This document shows positions 1-9,713 of a stretch of 10,740 bases of DNA, in pieces. The stretch comes from JALXCG01 sp026991065 [NCBI: Gemmatimonadota bacterium] (lineage in GTDB: Bacteria > GCA-2686955), in contig JALXCG010000808.1 in NCBI GenBank assembly GCA_026991065.1, forward strand, positions 1-10,740, read 5' to 3'. Positions within the stretch are counted from its first letter, which is position 1. Every line of letters starts with the position of its first letter. Made by a program: the position numbers and the translations under genes. Under the pieces are notes generated by a model that saw nothing but the letters and a program-made list of their open reading frames with translations, was not told where the DNA came from and ran no database searches.

Positions 1-3000
1 GGCCGCGGGGTGACGCGTGGTGTGGGTCGGGGCGCGAGCCGGGGCGCGAGCCGGGGCGCGAGTCGGGCGAGCGATCTGCGGGATTCGGCGCCGGGCGCGG
101 GCAGTGATGAGATTCCGGCCGCGCGGGTGACGGTGCTGCAGCGGGAGGCGTTTGCGCAGCGGGTGCGGATTCAGTGCGCGGCACCGCGGGAGCGGCGGAG
201 TGGCGCGCCGGGAGCCGGGGAGGTGGGCGGTCGCTATTTTCAGTTGCAAGGAGCGGGGATCCATGCCGATCCCGGGGAGCCGGTGGTTCCGGTGATCTCC
301 CGGGTCGTGGCGCTGCCCTTCCGCGACACACCGGTCCATGTGCAGGTCGAGAGCGTGGATGAGGTTGCGCTGGAATTGGGGCCGGAGTCTGTGCCGGTGC
401 TGAGCCGGGGGCTGCCGGCGGGGAAGGATCCGGCGCTGGCCTCCGCGGCGATCGCGGGAATGCGCTTTGAGCCATCGTCGATGAACCGGTTGCTGCCCGC
501 GGTTCCCTATCGGATTGAGCGGCTCTGCGTTGATGGGCTCTATCTGGCGCGGATCTCGTTCTACCCGCTGGCGATCCGGCCGGCGAGCGGCACCGCGCTG
601 CTGCGGCGTGACGTGGTGTTGCGAATTGGTGTTGAACGGCCGCGGCGGGAGCCGGCGGCGGCAACCTTGGCACGTGCTCCTCTGGGAAAGAGATGGGACG
701 GGCTTCTGCTCAATCCGGAAGGCGCCCGGCGCTGGCGGCGGAAGCGCGGCCAGTGGGTTGCGGCGGCCCCGGCGGCTCCGGCGGCGCCGATGAGTTCGGA
801 CGATCAGCCGGTTTTGCGCGTGCTGGTGGATCGCGACGGCATGACCGCATTGACCGGCGCCGAGATTGAGGCCGCCGGCATCTCCCTGCGGGATGTCGAT
901 GTGGCCACGTTGGCCTTGACCGAGCGCGGCCTTCCGGAGCCGATTCTGGTCGAGGAGGGCGGCGATGGGCGGCTGGATCCCGAGGACCGGATTCTCTTCT
1001 ACGGGCGGGCGCCGCGCGGCAATGGACGGGAGCACAATCCCTACACCACCGAGAATGTCTACTTCTTGACCTGGGGCGGGGAGCCGGGGGCACGCTTGAT
1101 TCAGGAGGACGCGTCGCCATTCGAGCGGGATCCGACCCGGTTCATTGAACCCTCGGCGTTCCGCTGGACGGTCCATGTGGAGGAGGACTCGATCTTCTCG
1201 CGCTTGGGCCAGAACGGCACGGTGGGGCTGGATCACTGGTTCTGGCGCACGGTTCACGCACCGTCACTCACGGTGTTGCCGCTTGATCTGCCGGCGCCGG
1301 ATGCGCTGGGTGACCGCGCCACGGTGCGGGTCCGTTTGATGGGGGCGACCTTCCCGGCGGAGTATCCGGATCACCACCTGGAGGTCTATTTCAACAGCAG
1401 CTCCTTGGATGATCTGACCTTTGACGGTCAGGTGGAGGTTCTCCACGAGTATGACGAGCTGCCGATGAGCAGCCTGCGGGACGGTGGCAACGAAATCAGC
1501 CTTGTGGCACCGGGAGACACGCCGGCCGGAACACTGGACGAGGTCTTTGTCGACTGGGTCGAAGTGGAGTATGACCGCCTCTTTCAGGCCGTCGATGGAG
1601 TTCTGGCGTTTGCCGCTCCCGCGGAGAGCCCACAAGGCCTCTATCAGTTCACACTCAAGGGATTCGATTCGCCCGATGTGCGTATCTTCAAGATCGGCGT
1701 CGGAGAGATGGTCAATGGTGTCGTTCAGCGGACGCGCGGGTCCGGGCATTATGAGGTGACGATACAGGATGCGCTCCTGACCTCGGATGTTCGCTATTTC
1801 GCGCTGGAGGCCGACCGCTTCAACCACCCGACCGGCGTGGAACAGGTTTTTCCCGGCGCCGATCTGCGGGATCCGGCGCGGGCCGCGGAACTGCTGGTGA
1901 TTGCGCCGCGAGAGTTCGAAGAGACACTGCAGGGTTATCTGGAGTGGCGGCGGAAACAGGGCACCAGCGTCAATTTGACCATTGCCGAAGATCTCTTTCA
2001 TCAATTCGGCGGTGGCCTGCCCAGTCCGGAGGCGCTTCGCGCCTATATCCGCATGGCGATGCAGGAATGGAGCAATCCCGAACTGCGAGCGGTGCTCTTG
2101 GTGGGGGATGGAACCTGGGACTACCGCAACATCCAGGAGGGCGATTCGCTGGAGAATCGGATCCCCGCGGGGATGGATTTCAATGTTGTCTGGGGCTACA
2201 CGTCGTCCGACAACTGGTATGTCCTGCCGGAAGACGATGCGATTCTCCCTGCTCTGCCGATCGGTCGCTGGCCGGTGCGAACCAGCGCCGAGTTGGAAAC
2301 TGTGATCGACAAAGTCACCTCTTATGCGCAGCAGGGGGACTGGTGTCGTGTGGTTGAGGTGATCGGAGGCAACGGCCAGGAGTTCCGCGACCGGGGCGAG
2401 GAGTTGATTCAGCAGATTCCGCGCTGGATGAAGCCGCAACGTGTCTACACGACGAAGGATCCGGAGCGCGAAGATGATCCCAGTTTCCGTGGTGGACCGG
2501 AACTGACCCGTGACATTGACGAGGGGGCGCTGATTCTCAATTTTCAGGGGCATGGCGGGGGCGGGGTCTGGTCCGACGCCGACTTGCTTGATATCGAGGA
2601 TGTGCCGCTGCTGCGCAATGGCGACAAATTGCCGGTCGTGTTTTCCATGACCTGCTACACCGGTTCTTTCGCCGACCCCGGACCGGCGGCGATTGGCGAG
2701 GTGTTCTTGACCGAGGCGGACAAGGGGGCGGTTGCTTTCTTCGGTTCCTCCGGCTTCTCCTATGAAGCGCAGGGGCACGAGCTGAATCAACATCTCTTTG
2801 ACGCGGTCTTTGATTTTGAGCGCGAGGATCCGACCCTCGGAGCTGTGGTGGTTCGGGCCAAGGAGCGCTTCTATCTGGAGAATGACGGCCTGATTCCGCG
2901 CGACATCGTTCGCGCCTACAACCTGCTGGGGGATCCTGAGATTGTTCCGGCGGTTCCCGAAGAGGCGATCAGTGTCTCGGCAACACCGCAGACTGTTGCG

Positions 3001-4956
3001 CTTGGGGAGGCGGTTGAGGTGCAGGGAAACTGGCCGGGTGGCGGTGGTGAATCGCTGACGCTGGAACTCTTCAACGGCGATGAAGTGGTTCGCGATCAAA
3101 CCACGGTAAATGTGGATGCCGGCGGTGGGTTCAGTGCGTCGCTCAGGGTTCCACAAGACGATCGCAGCGGTGTCTGGAGCGTGCGGGCGCGTGGTGGCCA
3201 CAATTACGGCGGCTGCGCACTTGGTGTAGAGGTACCGGTGCTGGCGGAGTTGACGACCGATCCTCCGCTGGTGCGCGCAAATGAACCGGCGCGGGTGCGA
3301 ACCCGGGTGGCCGAGAGCAGCCTGTTCACGGAATACCACCTTGTATGGGCGATCAACTCTCTCTTCAACAATGCGGATACTTTGGAGCTGATCCCCGCCG
3401 GCGACACCGGCGCCTATGTCAGCAACGACACCATTCCGGGACAGCCAGGGGGGCGGGAAGTGTTCATGAAGGTGGTTGCCGCCGGGGATGGGATTGAACC
3501 CTGGGTCGGTCCGGTCAGCTCCTACAAGGTGCGGCGGCGGGAAGATCTGACTTTTGCCGATGGTCCGCAGGGTCGCTTCGAAGGCACGACGGCGGTCACT
3601 TTTGGAGTGGATGTCGCCAATGTGGGACAGGTGGACGCCACCGATGTGGAGGTGAGTTTTGGTTGGTACCCGGTGGTGATGCAGGCGGACACGGTGTATA
3701 TGCCGGCGGAGGATGAGTGGAACGCGTTTGAACCGAATTCGGAGACCCGGGTCGATGTTCCGGGGAAGGCGGTGACGCGGGCGGAGATTCTCTGGGATCT
3801 GCCGCCGGGGCCGCACCTGGTGCGCGCGGTGATCGATCCGAATGATCGCGTGTCGGAGAGTTCCGAGGCCAACAATGTGCGCGTTCTGCAGGTCTCGGCC
3901 GACCACTATCTGGTGACTCCGGAGGAGGGCACAACCGGGCCGCGTCCCTCCGCGGATGGCAACCTGCATGTGGAGGTGCAGCCGGACGTGGTTTCGGAGC
4001 CGACCGTGCTGGTGGTGGAGCGGCAGGCGATGCCGGAGCCGACTGCCCAGGGAGACTACGAACTGCCGCGATTCTACAGTGGGGCGCAGTCCATCGCATA
4101 CTGGGTGCATCCCGCGGACAGCAGCGTCACTTTGCCGGGAATCGACATCACTTTTCACACCGACGGCGCGGCAACCACCGACCTGGCCGCCTACCGCTGG
4201 GATCCCGACCGGCGCAAGTGGATCCGCTATCCCAGCGAGAGCCGGACCGCGGGTGATATCCAGGTGGAGAACCTGGAAACGGGTGTCTATACACTCCTGG
4301 ACAACCATGACCAACTGCCGCCGCAGGTGGAACTGCAGGCGCGCGGCCGGCGGATCGCCGAAGGCGGCTATGTGATTCCACGGCCTCGGCTGGATTTGAT
4401 GGCGCAGGATGCCAACGGCATTGATGTGCGTCCGGAAAAGATAGTGCTGCGGATTGATGGCGAAACGCTGGAACGCAGTAGCTATTCGGTGGCCCCCAAC
4501 CCGCAACATCCCAACCTGGTGGCGATCAGTACCCCGACGGAGCTGGGACGCGGCTCCCATGAGGCGGAGTTGGAGATCGAGGATGTGAATGGCAACAAGA
4601 CGGTCAGTGCCACCTCTTTCCTGATCGGCGAGCGGACTCGGATTCGCAATCTGGCGAACTACCCCAATCCCGCCGGTGCAGCGGGTACTACCTTCACTTT
4701 CACCCTGGAGACGGATTGGGCCGCCGTCGATGAAGTGACGCTGCGCATCTACACGCCGTCGGGGCGGATGATTCGGGCGTTTTCCTCGAAACGGGATCTG
4801 ATCCGCTCGGTGGATTACTCCGAAGTGCCGTGGGATCTGACCGATTCAGTTGGGCGCCCGGTGGCCAATGGTGTCTATTTCTATCGCGTCGAGGTCAAAG
4901 GAGCAAAGCATAGCGAACGGGTTTCGCGCATGGGGAAATTGGCGGTGCTGCGATGA
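1..4956 (+). CDS. porU: PorU-like C25 (gingipain-family) cysteine peptidase, probable T9SS sortase; 5' end probably outside the window
   Basis: Probable surface-exposed or secreted cysteine endopeptidase. In the T9SS, PorU removes the C-terminal sorting domain of cargo and links the cargo to surface lipopolysaccharide. Residue numbers count from the GTG at 10. Residues 70-115 resemble a C25 propeptide (GEPVVPVISR followed by an ALPF strand). Residues 265-360 match the PorU/C25 pre-domain (GGDGRLDPEDRILFYGRAP). The C25 catalytic domain is about 625-980, with LLVGDGTWDYRN at 696-707, the His motif FQGHGG (H848) and the Cys motif SMTCYTG (C882). Ig-like segments follow at about 985-1172, a CARDB-like domain (VANVGQ... 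SSEANN) at 1180-1296, a PorU-type beta region at 1312-1540, and a FlgD-like/sorting-like domain from YPNPAG to the end at 1545-1648. The frame is open to base 1. No signal peptide is visible, so the true start is probably upstream. The 1648 residues make it longer than PorU of Porphyromonas (about 1150). It could instead be a gingipain-like cargo protease. The family is sure; the exact role is inferred. Confidence 0.85.
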   Translation, partial: GRGVTRGVGRGASRGASRGASRASDLRDSAPGAGSDEIPAARVTVLQREAFAQRVRIQCAAPRERRSGAPGAGEVGGRYFQLQGAGIHADPGEPVVPVISRVVALPFRDTPVHVQVESVDEVALELGPESVPVLSRGLPAGKDPALASAAIAGMRFEPSSMNRLLPAVPYRIERLCVDGLYLARISFYPLAIRPASGTALLRRDVVLRIGVERPRREPAAATLARAPLGKRWDGLLLNPEGARRWRRKRGQWVAAAPAAPAAPMSSDDQPVLRVLVDRDGMTALTGAEIEAAGISLRDVDVATLALTERGLPEPILVEEGGDGRLDPEDRILFYGRAPRGNGREHNPYTTENVYFLTWGGEPGARLIQEDASPFERDPTRFIEPSAFRWTVHVEEDSIFSRLGQNGTVGLDHWFWRTVHAPSLTVLPLDLPAPDALGDRATVRVRLMGATFPAEYPDHHLEVYFNSSSLDDLTFDGQVEVLHEYDELPMSSLRDGGNEISLVAPGDTPAGTLDEVFVDWVEVEYDRLFQAVDGVLAFAAPAESPQGLYQFTLKGFDSPDVRIFKIGVGEMVNGVVQRTRGSGHYEVTIQDALLTSDVRYFALEADRFNHPTGVEQVFPGADLRDPARAAELLVIAPREFEETLQGYLEWRRKQGTSVNLTIAEDLFHQFGGGLPSPEALRAYIRMAMQEWSNPELRAVLLVGDGTWDYRNIQEGDSLENRIPAGMDFNVVWGYTSSDNWYVLPEDDAILPALPIGRWPVRTSAELETVIDKVTSYAQQGDWCRVVEVIGGNGQEFRDRGEELIQQIPRWMKPQRVYTTKDPEREDDPSFRGGPELTRDIDEGALILNFQGHGGGGVWSDADLLDIEDVPLLRNGDKLPVVFSMTCYTGSFADPGPAAIGEVFLTEADKGAVAFFGSSGFSYEAQGHELNQHLFDAVFDFEREDPTLGAVVVRAKERFYLENDGLIPRDIVRAYNLLGDPEIVPAVPEEAISVSATPQTVALGEAVEVQGNWPGGGGESLTLELFNGDEVVRDQTTVNVDAGGGFSASLRVPQDDRSGVWSVRARGGHNYGGCALGVEVPVLAELTTDPPLVRANEPARVRTRVAESSLFTEYHLVWAINSLFNNADTLELIPAGDTGAYVSNDTIPGQPGGREVFMKVVAAGDGIEPWVGPVSSYKVRRREDLTFADGPQGRFEGTTAVTFGVDVANVGQVDATDVEVSFGWYPVVMQADTVYMPAEDEWNAFEPNSETRVDVPGKAVTRAEILWDLPPGPHLVRAVIDPNDRVSESSEANNVRVLQVSADHYLVTPEEGTTGPRPSADGNLHVEVQPDVVSEPTVLVVERQAMPEPTAQGDYELPRFYSGAQSIAYWVHPADSSVTLPGIDITFHTDGAATTDLAAYRWDPDRRKWIRYPSESRTAGDIQVENLETGVYTLLDNHDQLPPQVELQARGRRIAEGGYVIPRPRLDLMAQDANGIDVRPEKIVLRIDGETLERSSYSVAPNPQHPNLVAISTPTELGRGSHEAELEIEDVNGNKTVSATSFLIGERTRIRNLANYPNPAGAAGTTFTFTLETDWAAVDEVTLRIYTPSGRMIRAFSSKRDLIRSVDYSEVPWDLTDSVGRPVANGVYFYRVEVKGAKHSERVSRMGKLAVLR
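29..64 (+). repeat. Three tandem 12-bp units encoding GASR repeats
   Basis: The unit GGGGCGCGAGCC occurs three times head to tail; the third copy has one C-to-T change. The units are in frame with the peptidase gene and give a (GASR)3 stretch. The repeat lies before the first recognisable domain, in a Gly/Arg/Ser-rich low-complexity segment. It may be a linker behind an upstream signal peptide, or untranslated if the true start is further right. Confidence 0.75.
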
Positions 4957-5990
4957 GCGGTCTTTTCAGGTTTTCCAGTTGGGTGCTGCTGGCGCTGAGC
5001 ACGGCGGGTAGCGCGGCGGCCAATGATGTGCGCTACGCGGCGGACTTCATGGATGTCGGCATCGGCGTTCGGGAGTTGGGAATGGGCAGTGCGGCCGGCG
5101 GAGTGGAGAGCGGCGTCGCGGATTGGTGGAATGTGTCGCTGATGTCGCGGCTGCGGGCCCGAGAGATTCACCTGCACCACACCTTCTATGCCGGCGGGCT
5201 TGCCAATCTCGATTTTGCGGGCATTGCCTGGCCGCTCGGCCGCTCCACGGCGGTCTCCGCATCGGTGTTGCGCTTTGCCGTTGACCAGATTCCCCGCTTC
5301 AACGACATTCTGGATCCGGATGGGCGTTCCGAGCGCGAGAACAATTTGGCATCCCGTCCTTCGGGAGTCCCGGCGGGGTTTTTCGATTCTCAAGATCTGG
5401 GGCTGCGCCTTTCGGTGGCGCGGTGGACCCGCCGGATTGTGGATTTCGGCTGGCTCTACAGCCCGTTTCCGTTGGAACTGGGGAGCGGCGCTTCGGTGAA
5501 GTACATTCGCCAGTCGCTGGATGATCATCTGGCGGTGGGCCTGGGCGCCGACGCAGGGGTGCACATGACTTTTGGAGGTGCCCAGATGGTCGGTTGGGAC
5601 TTCCTTGGGGACTTCACCAGTGCGCTGACACTGACCGACATCGCCGCCACCCAGATCACCTGGGATACTCCCAGTCGCGCCAAGGCGTCGATTCCCATGC
5701 GGGTGCGCTACGATTGGGGCTACGTGCAGGAGGTGGGGAGTTTGCAGAGTCGCCTGGTGTTGGCCTGGGGGCGCACCTGGGATCTGGACGACGGTGGCCG
5801 CACCGATCGCGGTTTCGGCGCGGAGTGGGGCGTGCGACAGAAGCTCTTTCTGCGTCTCGGGCAGCACCGCGATGATTGGTCCGCGGGGCTCGGATTGCGG
5901 GTGTGGAAGATGCAGCTCGACTATGCCTTTTTGGCGGCTGAAGCCCTTGATTCTCACCGCATCGATTTGACCTTCATGCCTTGGAACTAA
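4953..5990 (+). CDS. porV: PorV/PorQ-family outer-membrane beta-barrel protein
   Basis: Predicted outer-membrane barrel of the PorV/PorQ (FadL-like) family. PorV binds T9SS cargo and passes it to the PorU sortase. The 345 residues begin with a Sec signal peptide: charged start, hydrophobic core VLLALSTAG and a likely cut after SAAA near residue 23. The mature N-terminus (residues 28-62) carries the family signature: ADFMDVGIGVRELGMGSA, then DWWN where the usual form is WNPA; here the Pro is replaced by Val. The rest alternates short amphipathic strands rich in aromatic residues and Gly, and ends in LTFMPWN, consistent with barrel closure. The start ATG overlaps the peptidase stop as ATGA and lacks a strong Shine-Dalgarno, so it is probably translationally coupled. 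PorV rather than PorQ is preferred because it directly follows the PorU-like gene; this is an inference from order. Confidence 0.8.
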   Translation: MSGLFRFSSWVLLALSTAGSAAANDVRYAADFMDVGIGVRELGMGSAAGGVESGVADWWNVSLMSRLRAREIHLHHTFYAGGLANLDFAGIAWPLGRSTAVSASVLRFAVDQIPRFNDILDPDGRSERENNLASRPSGVPAGFFDSQDLGLRLSVARWTRRIVDFGWLYSPFPLELGSGASVKYIRQSLDDHLAVGLGADAGVHMTFGGAQMVGWDFLGDFTSALTLTDIAATQITWDTPSRAKASIPMRVRYDWGYVQEVGSLQSRLVLAWGRTWDLDDGGRTDRGFGAEWGVRQKLFLRLGQHRDDWSAGLGLRVWKMQLDYAFLAAEALDSHRIDLTFMPWN

Positions 5991-6866: not shown

Positions 6867-7358
6867 ATGAAGAGCCGGATCAGCAACCGGATACTCGCCG
6901 TGTTCGTCGCCCTTCTATGCGTGACGCCGGTCTTGCGCGCGGAAGAGTCGGTGGTTTCCCAGGGGTCCTCGCCTGCGTACTACATCAGCCCCGGTTACGA
7001 GTCCAGGCTACAGATCACCGTGCACATATGGGGCGAGGTCCACAAGCCGGGGCTCTATGTGGTCCCGGACAACACCGACCTGGTGACTCTGCTCTCCTAT
7101 GCCGGCGGTCCGACGAAGAATGCGCGCGTCTCTTCGGTCAAGTTGATTCGAACCACGGAAAATGGTGATGAGGTGGAGGAGATCGACATCAAGGACTACA
7201 TCTCACACGGCAATCCCGCGGCCACCATGGTGCTGCAACCTGGAGACACCGTGGTCGTTCCCGGCAGTGTCTGGTACGCCATCGGGCGTTTCTTCGGCTT
7301 TATGACCCAGGTCGCAATTGTTGCATCCACCGCCAACCTTATCTTTTTCTCCAACTAG
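6867..7358 (+). CDS. Small exported SLBB-domain protein of a polysaccharide export system
   Basis: Predicted periplasmic or envelope protein of 163 residues with a single SLBB (soluble ligand-binding beta-grasp) domain, the domain that in Wza-type exporters and related proteins contacts glycans or partner proteins. The N-terminus is a signal peptide (RILAVFVALLC core, likely cut after VLRA near residue 25). The SLBB domain is about 48-132: VHIWGEVHKPGLYVVP, then LLSYAGGPTKNA, closing with LQPGDTVVVPGS. The Poly_export domain that precedes SLBB repeats in Wza-type proteins is absent. Residues 139-161 are hydrophobic and could be a membrane anchor or the strand/helix that meets an outer-membrane ring. 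It lies 9 bases before the tyrosine autokinase gene, which points to a shared job in exopolysaccharide assembly. The domain call is firm; whether it forms a channel is not known. Confidence 0.82.
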   Translation: MKSRISNRILAVFVALLCVTPVLRAEESVVSQGSSPAYYISPGYESRLQITVHIWGEVHKPGLYVVPDNTDLVTLLSYAGGPTKNARVSSVKLIRTTENGDEVEEIDIKDYISHGNPAATMVLQPGDTVVVPGSVWYAIGRFFGFMTQVAIVASTANLIFFSN

Positions 7359-7367
7359 GATCGGCTG

Positions 7368-9713
7368 ATGGAAGAGCGTGAACCGCAAGACATCACACTA
7401 ATGGACTATGTCCATATCGTCTGGTCTCGGCGTTGGATGGTGGGGCTGATCACCCTTTCGGTGGTCGCCTTTACCGTGTTCTTTACCCTGCGCATGAAGC
7501 CGGTTTATGAAGCACAGACTTCGCTGCTCATTGAATCGAACGACGCCGGCGCGTTGTCGATCTTTGACCCCACCGGTTTGATGAAACAGAAGTTTCTCAT
7601 CAACAACGAGTGCGAACTGCTGCGCAGCCGCAGTTTGGCCCAGCGAGTGCTGGACCGGGCGCGGCAAGAGGGCTGGACGCCGCCCGAGACCGCCTCACCG
7701 GATGTGGATTGGGTTGCGGCGCTGCGTTCACGGCTGACCGTGAGTTCATTGAAGGATGCCGATGTCATCACGATCAAGATGACCGCCGGCGACCCCGATG
7801 AAGCCGCCTATTTTGCCAACTGCTTCGCGGATGAATACCGCAATCAGAATATCAGTCAGAATCGCGGCGAACTCTCCGGCGTGCGACGGTTTCTTGAGGA
7901 GCAGTTGGAGAAGGTCGAGGAGCGGCTGACACAGTCGGAAGAGGAGTTGCGGGCGTTCAAGACCGAATCGGGGTTGGTGTCGCTGAGCGACGAAGTTGAG
8001 TCGATGGTGCGCCAACTTGCCGAGTTCGAGAGCGCGGAGAACAGTGCCCTGGTGGACAAGCGCGCGCTCGAAAGCCGCCTGGCCTATGTGAAATCACAGT
8101 TGGAGGAGTCGCGGCGCGGATTGGTAGAGGATCTGGACGACTCCACCAACCCGCTGGTGGTGCAACTGCGCGATCAATTGGTCGCCCTGCAGACCGAGCG
8201 AACCTCTCTTCTGGTGCGTGGCGCTCGGCCCGATGCTCCGCAGATCCTGGAGTTGGAAAGCAAGATTGCCGAGGCGCGCAGCAACCTGGCAGAGGAGACG
8301 CAGAAACTCGTCGAGCGCGGACTGGTGCCCGGGGATCCCCTGGTCTACAACAACGAACTGGTCGAGAAGATCCTGGAACTGAGCACGGAGCTGGAGACCG
8401 CATCGGCGCGCGCCGCTGATCTCCATGCGGTGGTCGAAGAATTCAACGCAAAGTTGCAGACGTTGCCGGACAAGGAACTGGAGTTGGCGCGTCGAACCCG
8501 CGAATACACTGTCGACGAAAACACCTACCTCATGATGAAGAAGAAGTATGAGGAGGTGCGGATCTCGGAGGCGGGGGAGATTGGCAACGTGCGGATCATC
8601 GACACCGCCATCCCGGTTTTGGATCCCGTGCGTCCCAACAAACGCTTGAACACTCTGCTTGGACTCATCGTGGGCTTGGGGCTCGGTCTGGCCCTCAGCT
8701 TCTTCCTGGAGTATCTGGATACCTCCCTGCGCTCGATCGAGGAGGTCGAGAAGAAGCTCAATGCCACGGTTCTTGGCGCGGTCTCGCGTTGGGAGCGTCC
8801 CGATAGCGGGGAAACCGCGGGGGATGAAAGCGGGCGTTTGATCACCATGAATGCACCGCGCTCGGCGGTGGCGGAGGCCTACCGCACGGTGCGGACCAAC
8901 ATTGGATTCGCCGCCGTGGGGGCACCGCTGCGCACCATTGTGGTGACGTCGTCCGGTCCCAAAGAGGGCAAGTCCACGACGGCATCGAATCTGGCGATCA
9001 CCATGGCACAGAGCGGCAAACGGGTGTTGCTGCTCGATGCTGATTTGCGCCGCCCGGTGCTGCACAAGGTCTTCGGCGTTGAGCGTGACTGTGGGTTGAC
9101 CGACCACCTGGTCGGCGCAGTGGAGTTGAGCGAGATCATTCACGAAACACCGGTGGAGGGGCTCTGTGTTGTCTCCAGCGGCTCGATCCCGCCGAATCCT
9201 TCCGAACTGCTTGGCTCAGAGGCGATGCGCCAGGTTCTTGGCCGGCTGCAGGAACAGTTCGACCTGATCATTATCGACACCCCGCCCGTCATGGCCGTTA
9301 CCGACGCGTTGGTACTGATCGCCGAGGTGGATGGCGTGATCATGATTGTCGAAGCCGGGACCACCGCGGAGCAGGTTGCGGTGCGGACCCGCCAGTTGAT
9401 CGCTCCCGCTGCGCGCCGCTTCCTGGGGGTGGTACTCAACAACGTGGATCTGTCTCGTGGCTACGGCTATGGTCGATACGGTAGTTACCATTACCACTAC
9501 CAGTATCATTATCAGAGCGAGACTGAGCCGGCCGCGGCCGGAGGTCGCGGTGGGCGGCGAATCGCGCGCAGCATGGCCCTTCTGGCGATCTTCTTCATCG
9601 CCGTGGCAGCCGCCGTGTGGTCGAATCGGGACCAGCAATCGCGGATTGCGGCTTCCGAGAACCTGGAAGACCTGATTCAAGCCCCGCCGTCGGGGAGCGT
9701 CGCGCAGCGTTGA
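7368..9713 (+). CDS. Wzz/Wzc-type polysaccharide co-polymerase and tyrosine autokinase (BY-kinase)
   Basis: Inner-membrane protein of 781 residues that should control chain length and export of surface polysaccharide and autophosphorylate on C-terminal tyrosines. AGGA (7357-7360) overlaps the preceding stop, 7 bases before the ATG. Order: Wzz N-terminus and TM1 (about 23-41); periplasmic coiled coils (about 165-360); GNVR region (375-430, with literal GNVR at 406-409); proline-rich PVLDPVRP; TM2 (about 428-447); EAYRTVRTN oligomerisation motif (503-511); Walker A GPKEGKST (530-537); Walker A' VLLLDADLRRP (553-563); Walker B LIIIDTPP (633-640); tyrosine cluster with Y699, 701, 704, 707, 709, 711, 713 and 715. 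The ATPase core looks complete. The oddity is the end: after the cluster come Arg/Gly-rich residues and a third hydrophobic segment (735-751, LLAIFFIAVAAAVW), then a 30-residue polar tail, whereas standard BY-kinases stop at the tyrosine cluster. The family is certain; the polysaccharide made is unknown. Confidence 0.95.
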   Translation: MEEREPQDITLMDYVHIVWSRRWMVGLITLSVVAFTVFFTLRMKPVYEAQTSLLIESNDAGALSIFDPTGLMKQKFLINNECELLRSRSLAQRVLDRARQEGWTPPETASPDVDWVAALRSRLTVSSLKDADVITIKMTAGDPDEAAYFANCFADEYRNQNISQNRGELSGVRRFLEEQLEKVEERLTQSEEELRAFKTESGLVSLSDEVESMVRQLAEFESAENSALVDKRALESRLAYVKSQLEESRRGLVEDLDDSTNPLVVQLRDQLVALQTERTSLLVRGARPDAPQILELESKIAEARSNLAEETQKLVERGLVPGDPLVYNNELVEKILELSTELETASARAADLHAVVEEFNAKLQTLPDKELELARRTREYTVDENTYLMMKKKYEEVRISEAGEIGNVRIIDTAIPVLDPVRPNKRLNTLLGLIVGLGLGLALSFFLEYLDTSLRSIEEVEKKLNATVLGAVSRWERPDSGETAGDESGRLITMNAPRSAVAEAYRTVRTNIGFAAVGAPLRTIVVTSSGPKEGKSTTASNLAITMAQSGKRVLLLDADLRRPVLHKVFGVERDCGLTDHLVGAVELSEIIHETPVEGLCVVSSGSIPPNPSELLGSEAMRQVLGRLQEQFDLIIIDTPPVMAVTDALVLIAEVDGVIMIVEAGTTAEQVAVRTRQLIAPAARRFLGVVLNNVDLSRGYGYGRYGSYHYHYQYHYQSETEPAAAGGRGGRRIARSMALLAIFFIAVAAAVWSNRDQQSRIAASENLEDLIQAPPSGSVAQR
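9486..9515 (+). repeat. TAY-CAN codon repeat encoding alternating Tyr-His/Gln
   Basis: Ten codons alternate TAC/TAT with CAT/CAC/CAG and encode Y-H-Y-H-Y-Q-Y-H-Y-Q inside the kinase tyrosine cluster. The degenerate 6-bp periodicity suggests growth by slippage or short duplication, followed by synonymous drift. Confidence 0.7.

Follow-up and report, generated by a model that had tools for sequence, protein, structure and literature searches.

A gene in a 10,740-nucleotide stretch of a Gemmatimonadota genome (contig JALXCG010000808.1; the whole stretch is called the window below) encodes a Wzc-type bacterial tyrosine kinase (BY-kinase) in which a hydrophobic segment follows the tyrosine cluster. 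The gene, its domains and motifs, this segment and the presence of the segment in an ortholog can all be read directly from the DNA. On this basis, the protein is best explained, with a probability of about 0.68, as a Wzc-like co-polymerase and tyrosine autokinase that would possess a third, C-terminal membrane helix running from the cytoplasm to the periplasm, with the tyrosine cluster forming a loop held on both sides. The gene and its parts are as follows.

7368..9713, + strand: BY-kinase/polysaccharide co-polymerase gene, 781 amino acids (Pfam Wzz, GNVR and AAA_31; TIGR01007 above cut-off)
7434..7490, + strand: first transmembrane helix (TM1), residues 23-41 (hydropathy)
8652..8708, + strand: second transmembrane helix (TM2), residues 429-447 (hydropathy)
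8820..9443, + strand: cytoplasmic kinase domain, residues ~485-692, limits set by eye (Pfam, TIGR01007, motifs; aligned to Wzc 7nhr)
9462..9512, + strand: tyrosine cluster, residues 699-715, eight Tyr (alignment with Wzc reaches chain residue 719)
9513..9569, + strand: linker, residues 716-734, with four Arg at 727-734 (sequence)
9570..9620, + strand: predicted third transmembrane helix (TM3), residues 735-751 (hydropathy, shuffles, conservation; kept in the ortholog L009/L052)
9621..9710, + strand: polar C-terminal tail of 30 residues (752-781), predicted to be periplasmic (sequence)

The architecture ahead of the extension is that of Wzc-type BY-kinases (PCP-2). Pfam places Wzz at residues 8-96 and GNVR at 373-446, flanked by the first two helices, together with P-loop domains; TIGR01007, the NCBIfam model of the BY-kinase domain, matches residues 503-707 (203.6 bits vs a cut-off of 108.05). 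The kinase domain contains GKST at position 534, DADLRRP at 557 and IIIDTPP at 634—the Walker-type motifs—and is followed by a cluster with Tyr at 699, 701, 704, 707, 709, 711, 713 and 715. These features, along with an alignment to Wzc, bear out the original prediction, made from the letters of the window, that the gene encodes a Wzc-type kinase; the coordinates that it gave for the tyrosine cluster, the hydrophobic stretch and the polar tail proved exact, and the basic residues that it placed before the helix correspond to the four Arg of the linker. The protein departs from the class in one respect, since a free C-terminal tyrosine tail and a total of two helices were not found: from residue 699 (base 9462 onward) the frame continues to a stop codon ending at 9713, with 66 residues, including the third hydrophobic segment, beyond the last Tyr. 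We therefore class it as a variant and not as a standard PCP-2 member. It scores 254.9 bits against the curated Wzc equivalog NF008568, below the cut-off of 1068, and Pfam detected neither the SPOR domain that marks the SPOR-tailed three-helix BY-kinases described below nor any recognised domain in the 30-residue tail. The cluster itself alternates Tyr and His at 9486-9512 (+ strand; YHYHYQYHY, with YHYHYHYH in the ortholog), while most other tails read are Tyr runs.

The C-terminal segment and its conservation

The segment at residues 735-751 (SMALLAIFFIAVAAAVW) contains no charged residue, and the highest 19-residue Kyte-Doolittle average of the entire protein falls on the C-terminal stretch (2.33, vs 2.28 for TM2 and 2.14 for TM1). 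Its hydrophobic moment (0.05, vs 0.12 for TM1 and 0.08 for TM2) marks it as non-amphipathic, and only five of 20,000 shuffles of the tail (residues 717-781) attained the observed hydropathy. Immediately before the segment stand four Arg, and the tail behind it has two more.

The search of the window's phylum covered two genomes, the window's own included, and identified a single ortholog: L009 (named copy L052, NYZA01000029.1, 'Gemmatimonadetes bacterium isolate ARS67'), which belongs to another genus. It shares 68% identity with the window kinase, likewise has 781 amino acids and keeps the hydrophobic segment. Identical positions in the interval 717-781 (18/65) are concentrated in the helix, with 12 of 21 at 731-751 vs 6 of 44 elsewhere (Fisher p = 0.0007, a value that the alignment itself favours by promoting such runs). 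This pattern modestly supports selection for a hydrophobic helix. We regard the extra segment as a conserved feature of the sequence that very likely forms a membrane helix. When the genome contigs were searched with the window protein alone, no match was returned; with a two-row alignment, six loci were recovered: the ortholog (L052), two more distant kinases (L053 and L054) and three loci, L055-L057, whose match is confined to a part of the kinase domain. One scan of viral contigs brought up no relative, which left four rows for the structure model discussed below.

We also weighed, and set aside, the possibility that the segment is an LPXTG- or PEP-CTERM-type sorting signal. Such signals follow a rule on the position of basic residues relative to the hydrophobic segment. 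No such family matched in Pfam or NCBIfam, and the basic residues here lie mainly ahead of the segment.

Tails of BY-kinases in other lineages

To place the extension among other BY-kinases, 104 kinase-type open reading frames were parsed, mostly from a search of 98 genomes nearly all of different families; the sample, which is not exhaustive, comprised loci from the initial searches and 60 hand-picked further matches among the matches listed, with L053 taken from the contig search. Sixty-five fused kinases were kept, and 39 of the 104 frames were dropped as having no helix called before the kinase or a kinase ending before residue 500—these being ParA-like proteins, stand-alone kinases and at least one full-length frame (L110) without a called helix. 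In the further searches described below, L135 and L162, misparsed automatically, were read by eye, as were eight more loci, and six genes recovered there a second time carry two labels (L118=L031, L148=L111, L179=L074, L180=L109, L181=L037, L182=L066). By a simple transmembrane rule, 60 of the 65 have exactly two helices ahead of the kinase. Tail hydropathy was bimodal, with nine kinases at 1.69 or above and the next at 0.70; the nine are the window protein, L009, L027, L031, L037, L066, L074, L109 and L111. Homologues sharing the C-terminal helix occur both as the ortholog and in other lineages. Among the nine, between 4 and 267 residues lie behind the helix; the spacing between last Tyr and helix amounts to 35-69 residues in six of them and to 17 in the window protein, which together with L027 has the shortest. 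A separate observation concerns L026 (1027-3765), a BY-kinase with about 200 residues beyond the kinase domain, no tail helix and a weak DUF4352 match below cut-off.

On a quick-method tree the helix label needs four changes, at least three of them by starred branches. The window pair lies apart from a starred eight-row set, six of whose members have the helix, while L027 sits elsewhere on a long branch with unsure placement. These counts come from a tree in which 37 of 62 inner branches are open and several rows, L027 among them, are long, and they cannot separate gain from loss.

Behind the helix, Pfam identified SPOR above cut-off in L031, L074 and L111 and RodZ_C in L027, and neither domain in L037, L066 or L109. 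In the phylum of genome G086, 73 of 95 genomes match a six-row alignment of helix-tailed kinases at the cut-off used; the best 30 loci were read, all of one family (f86) and ranked by a score to which the tail contributes; weaker matches from other families of that phylum, many with frames of 750-830 residues, fell outside this reading. Two of four genomes match in the phylum of G007, and two loci were read there. The tail helix was present in all 32 loci of the two phyla (31 parsed and L135 by eye), two of which are survey genes (L118 and L148). The SPOR scan covered 31 of these tails, all but that of L135, and gave a match in 30; the tail without one is probably that of L140, whose frame runs off its locus. 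The thirty family-f86 kinases (L118-L147) have frames of 971-1335 residues, with the helix and mostly SPOR behind the tyrosine cluster. A search of 386 genomes yielded 29 strong matches to the SPOR-type clade, 12 with the helix, L185 being borderline (1.62); six of the 12 are survey genes. Pfam found SPOR in L179 (=L074), in L186 (21.1 vs a cut-off of 21) and, as a partial match, in L188 (26.8 vs 21), and did not find it in L180, L182, L184 or L185.

SPOR belongs to a type of domain with known cell-wall binding. The layout of the window protein appears to recur in other bacteria, often with SPOR behind the helix and in one row with RodZ_C—an extension beyond the content of the original prediction. 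In those proteins in which SPOR and RodZ_C have been studied, both are extracytoplasmic, so the third helix of the kinases that bear them should run from the cytoplasm to the periplasm.

Weighing the alternatives

Several observations count against a third membrane helix in the window protein. On a second (biological hydrophobicity) scale, with values entered by hand, the C-terminal 19-residue stretch, one Arg included, comes out at -0.07, a weaker value than those of TM2 (-1.52) and TM1 (-1.00). Only one ortholog is known, and its segment reaches a hydropathy of just 1.73, attained in 154 of 20,000 shuffles of its tail; two Arg stand right behind it, in addition to basic residues ahead, and a neutral simulation at roughly the observed divergence retains the ortholog hydropathy in 3.7% of stop-free runs. 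An AlphaFold2 model built from four sequences shows one helix at 729-762, but with low confidence (mean predicted local distance difference test (pLDDT) 59.7; 45-51 in the blocks of 731-750, and below 50 in the TM1 and TM2 blocks), and speaks neither for nor against insertion. Finally, no tail helix follows the tyrosine cluster in 21 new relatives (at most 42% identity) among the loci listed from the 386 genomes; these were the higher-ranked matches, 13 of them parsed (one wrongly), with that one and eight others read by eye. Together with the 56 of 65 surveyed kinases that lack the helix, they make literally true a finding that the original prediction had named as speaking against it. We take the absence to mean that the segment is lineage-specific and not that it is false. 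As to the third helix with a periplasmic end that had been proposed, a membrane-like segment stands, as do its retention in the ortholog, the basic residues ahead of it and the domains behind the equivalent helix in relatives, which fit a cytoplasm-to-periplasm course. The constraint on ring assembly, or its rewiring, that had been suggested may follow from such a helix.

The strongest competing account keeps the same topology and changes the role: TM3 would span the membrane and chiefly recruit a partner (the polymerase, the flippase, the upstream SLBB protein or the cell wall), with little effect on the ring. The SPOR and RodZ_C domains of other lineages would be plausible recruitment modules, and the longer distances between last Tyr and helix in six of the helix-tailed kinases would leave the tail freer. 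However, the periplasmic part of the window protein is only 30 residues long, poorly conserved and devoid of any recognised domain, and its last Tyr lies unusually close to the helix. We regard recruitment as the main role as possible, if doubtful.

The remaining accounts are less probable. The helix could be the remnant of a lost, longer periplasmic domain such as SPOR, and the widely varying length behind the helix indicates that this end changes often; yet on the quick tree the window pair is not grouped with the SPOR-bearing clade, none of its nearest relatives that were read carries such a helix, and the helix itself is the conserved part, all of which makes a remnant improbable. To about the same low degree, the segment may lie on or dip into the inner membrane face, leaving the C-terminus in the cytoplasm. 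Its short core (17 residues), the weaker score on the second scale and the mixed charges behind it would suit such an arrangement, but its hydrophobic moment is lower than those of TM1 and TM2, and relatives carry extracytoplasmic-type domains behind the equivalent helix. Lastly, an artefact—a frameshift, a wrong assembly fusion or a chance hydrophobic run in a disordered tail—might be suspected from the fragmented assembly (902 contigs) and the shuffles of the ortholog tail, but is scarcely credible given an assembly from another genus with the same length, frame and hydrophobic segment, a third-position G+C that is the same in tail and body (0.77) and the rarity of equally hydrophobic shuffles of the window tail; the frameshift that the original prediction had allowed for is thus very unlikely.

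Locus, proposed role and comparison with known systems

Gene order before the kinase, judged by eye from translations, is common to the two genomes of the phylum: a C25 peptidase, a PorV-like protein, a small protein and an SLBB protein. Behind the kinase, an additional epimerase-like gene precedes the relative of the window's dehydratase in the second genome. The small SLBB protein gene (6867-7358, + strand) ends 9 bases upstream of the kinase, and its product begins with a signal-like sequence and carries at its C-terminus a hydrophobic stretch that is near-identical in the ortholog's genome; Pfam did not find a Poly_export domain in it. At 10-5990 (+ strand), adjoining the polysaccharide locus, the window encodes the peptidase family C25 protein (Pfam) and the PorV-like protein (NCBIfam, below cut-off), a pair that resembles type IX secretion and has counterparts in matching order in the phylum's other genome (by eye). 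LMWPc phosphatases and Poly_export proteins occur in both genomes, which fits an export system and carries no tie to this kinase.

If the third helix crosses the membrane as we propose, the tyrosine cluster would be a cytoplasmic loop between TM2 and the kinase on one side and TM3 on the other, with no free end. The neighbour's loop in the ring would most likely still be phosphorylated, because the nucleotide-binding motifs are kept and eight Tyr are present. Given the 19 linker residues ahead of TM3, the neighbour's active site would have to take up the loop from the side, and threading from the end would be impossible. Besides ring stability, phosphorylation would then influence where TM3 sits, offering a second route for a signal across the membrane.

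A broader interpretation, which we put forward tentatively and at somewhat less than even odds, is that three-helix BY-kinases form a class that has apparently arisen more than once (at least three trait changes on the quick tree). In this class the phosphorylated tyrosine tail would be a membrane-tethered loop with a periplasmic far side, at whose end many members would carry a peptidoglycan-binding or RodZ-type domain. Polymerisation of capsule or exopolysaccharide would be coupled directly to cell-wall state through the kinase, phosphorylation would move the third helix or be gated by it, and the window family would represent the minimal form. Were this true, the SPOR and RodZ_C versions would connect polysaccharide export to peptidoglycan directly and physically. 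No description of a three-helix or SPOR-bearing BY-kinase was found in the open-access literature, and an earlier account may exist outside it.

Among these relatives, the SPOR-tailed BY-kinases (G086 and its family, G007, G192, G055, G423 and G235) resemble the window protein in having a fused Wzz-kinase, a tyrosine cluster and then a hydrophobic helix. They differ in that L031, L074 and L111 carry 125-267 residues behind the helix, with SPOR, and the survey members among them are separate from the window pair on the tree and have a longer distance from last Tyr to helix. L027 (genome G016) likewise has a third helix behind the kinase but bears RodZ_C behind it, has only two Tyr ahead of it and lies elsewhere on the tree.

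Wzc (PDB 7nhr and later entries) shares with the window protein a Wzz-type periplasmic part between two helices, the kinase domain and the tyrosine cluster. The best-aligned stretch covers window residues 357-715, with residue 715 opposite residue 719 of the 7nhr chain; the 66 residues beyond the last Tyr and the third hydrophobic segment set the window protein apart. In the passages of PMC11986026 that concern these points, Wzc has two transmembrane helices, and its tyrosine tail (Y705 to K721) enters the neighbour's active site, in agreement with the picture of known Wzc from which the original prediction started. The tail is described there as phosphorylated stepwise while moving through the neighbour's site (a ratchet model), after which the ring disassembles, and phosphorylation as passed across the membrane via helices alpha1 and alpha23. 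With its far end anchored in the membrane, a tail would be unable to follow the Wzc ratchet exactly, so the three-helix kinases would provide natural tests of that model.
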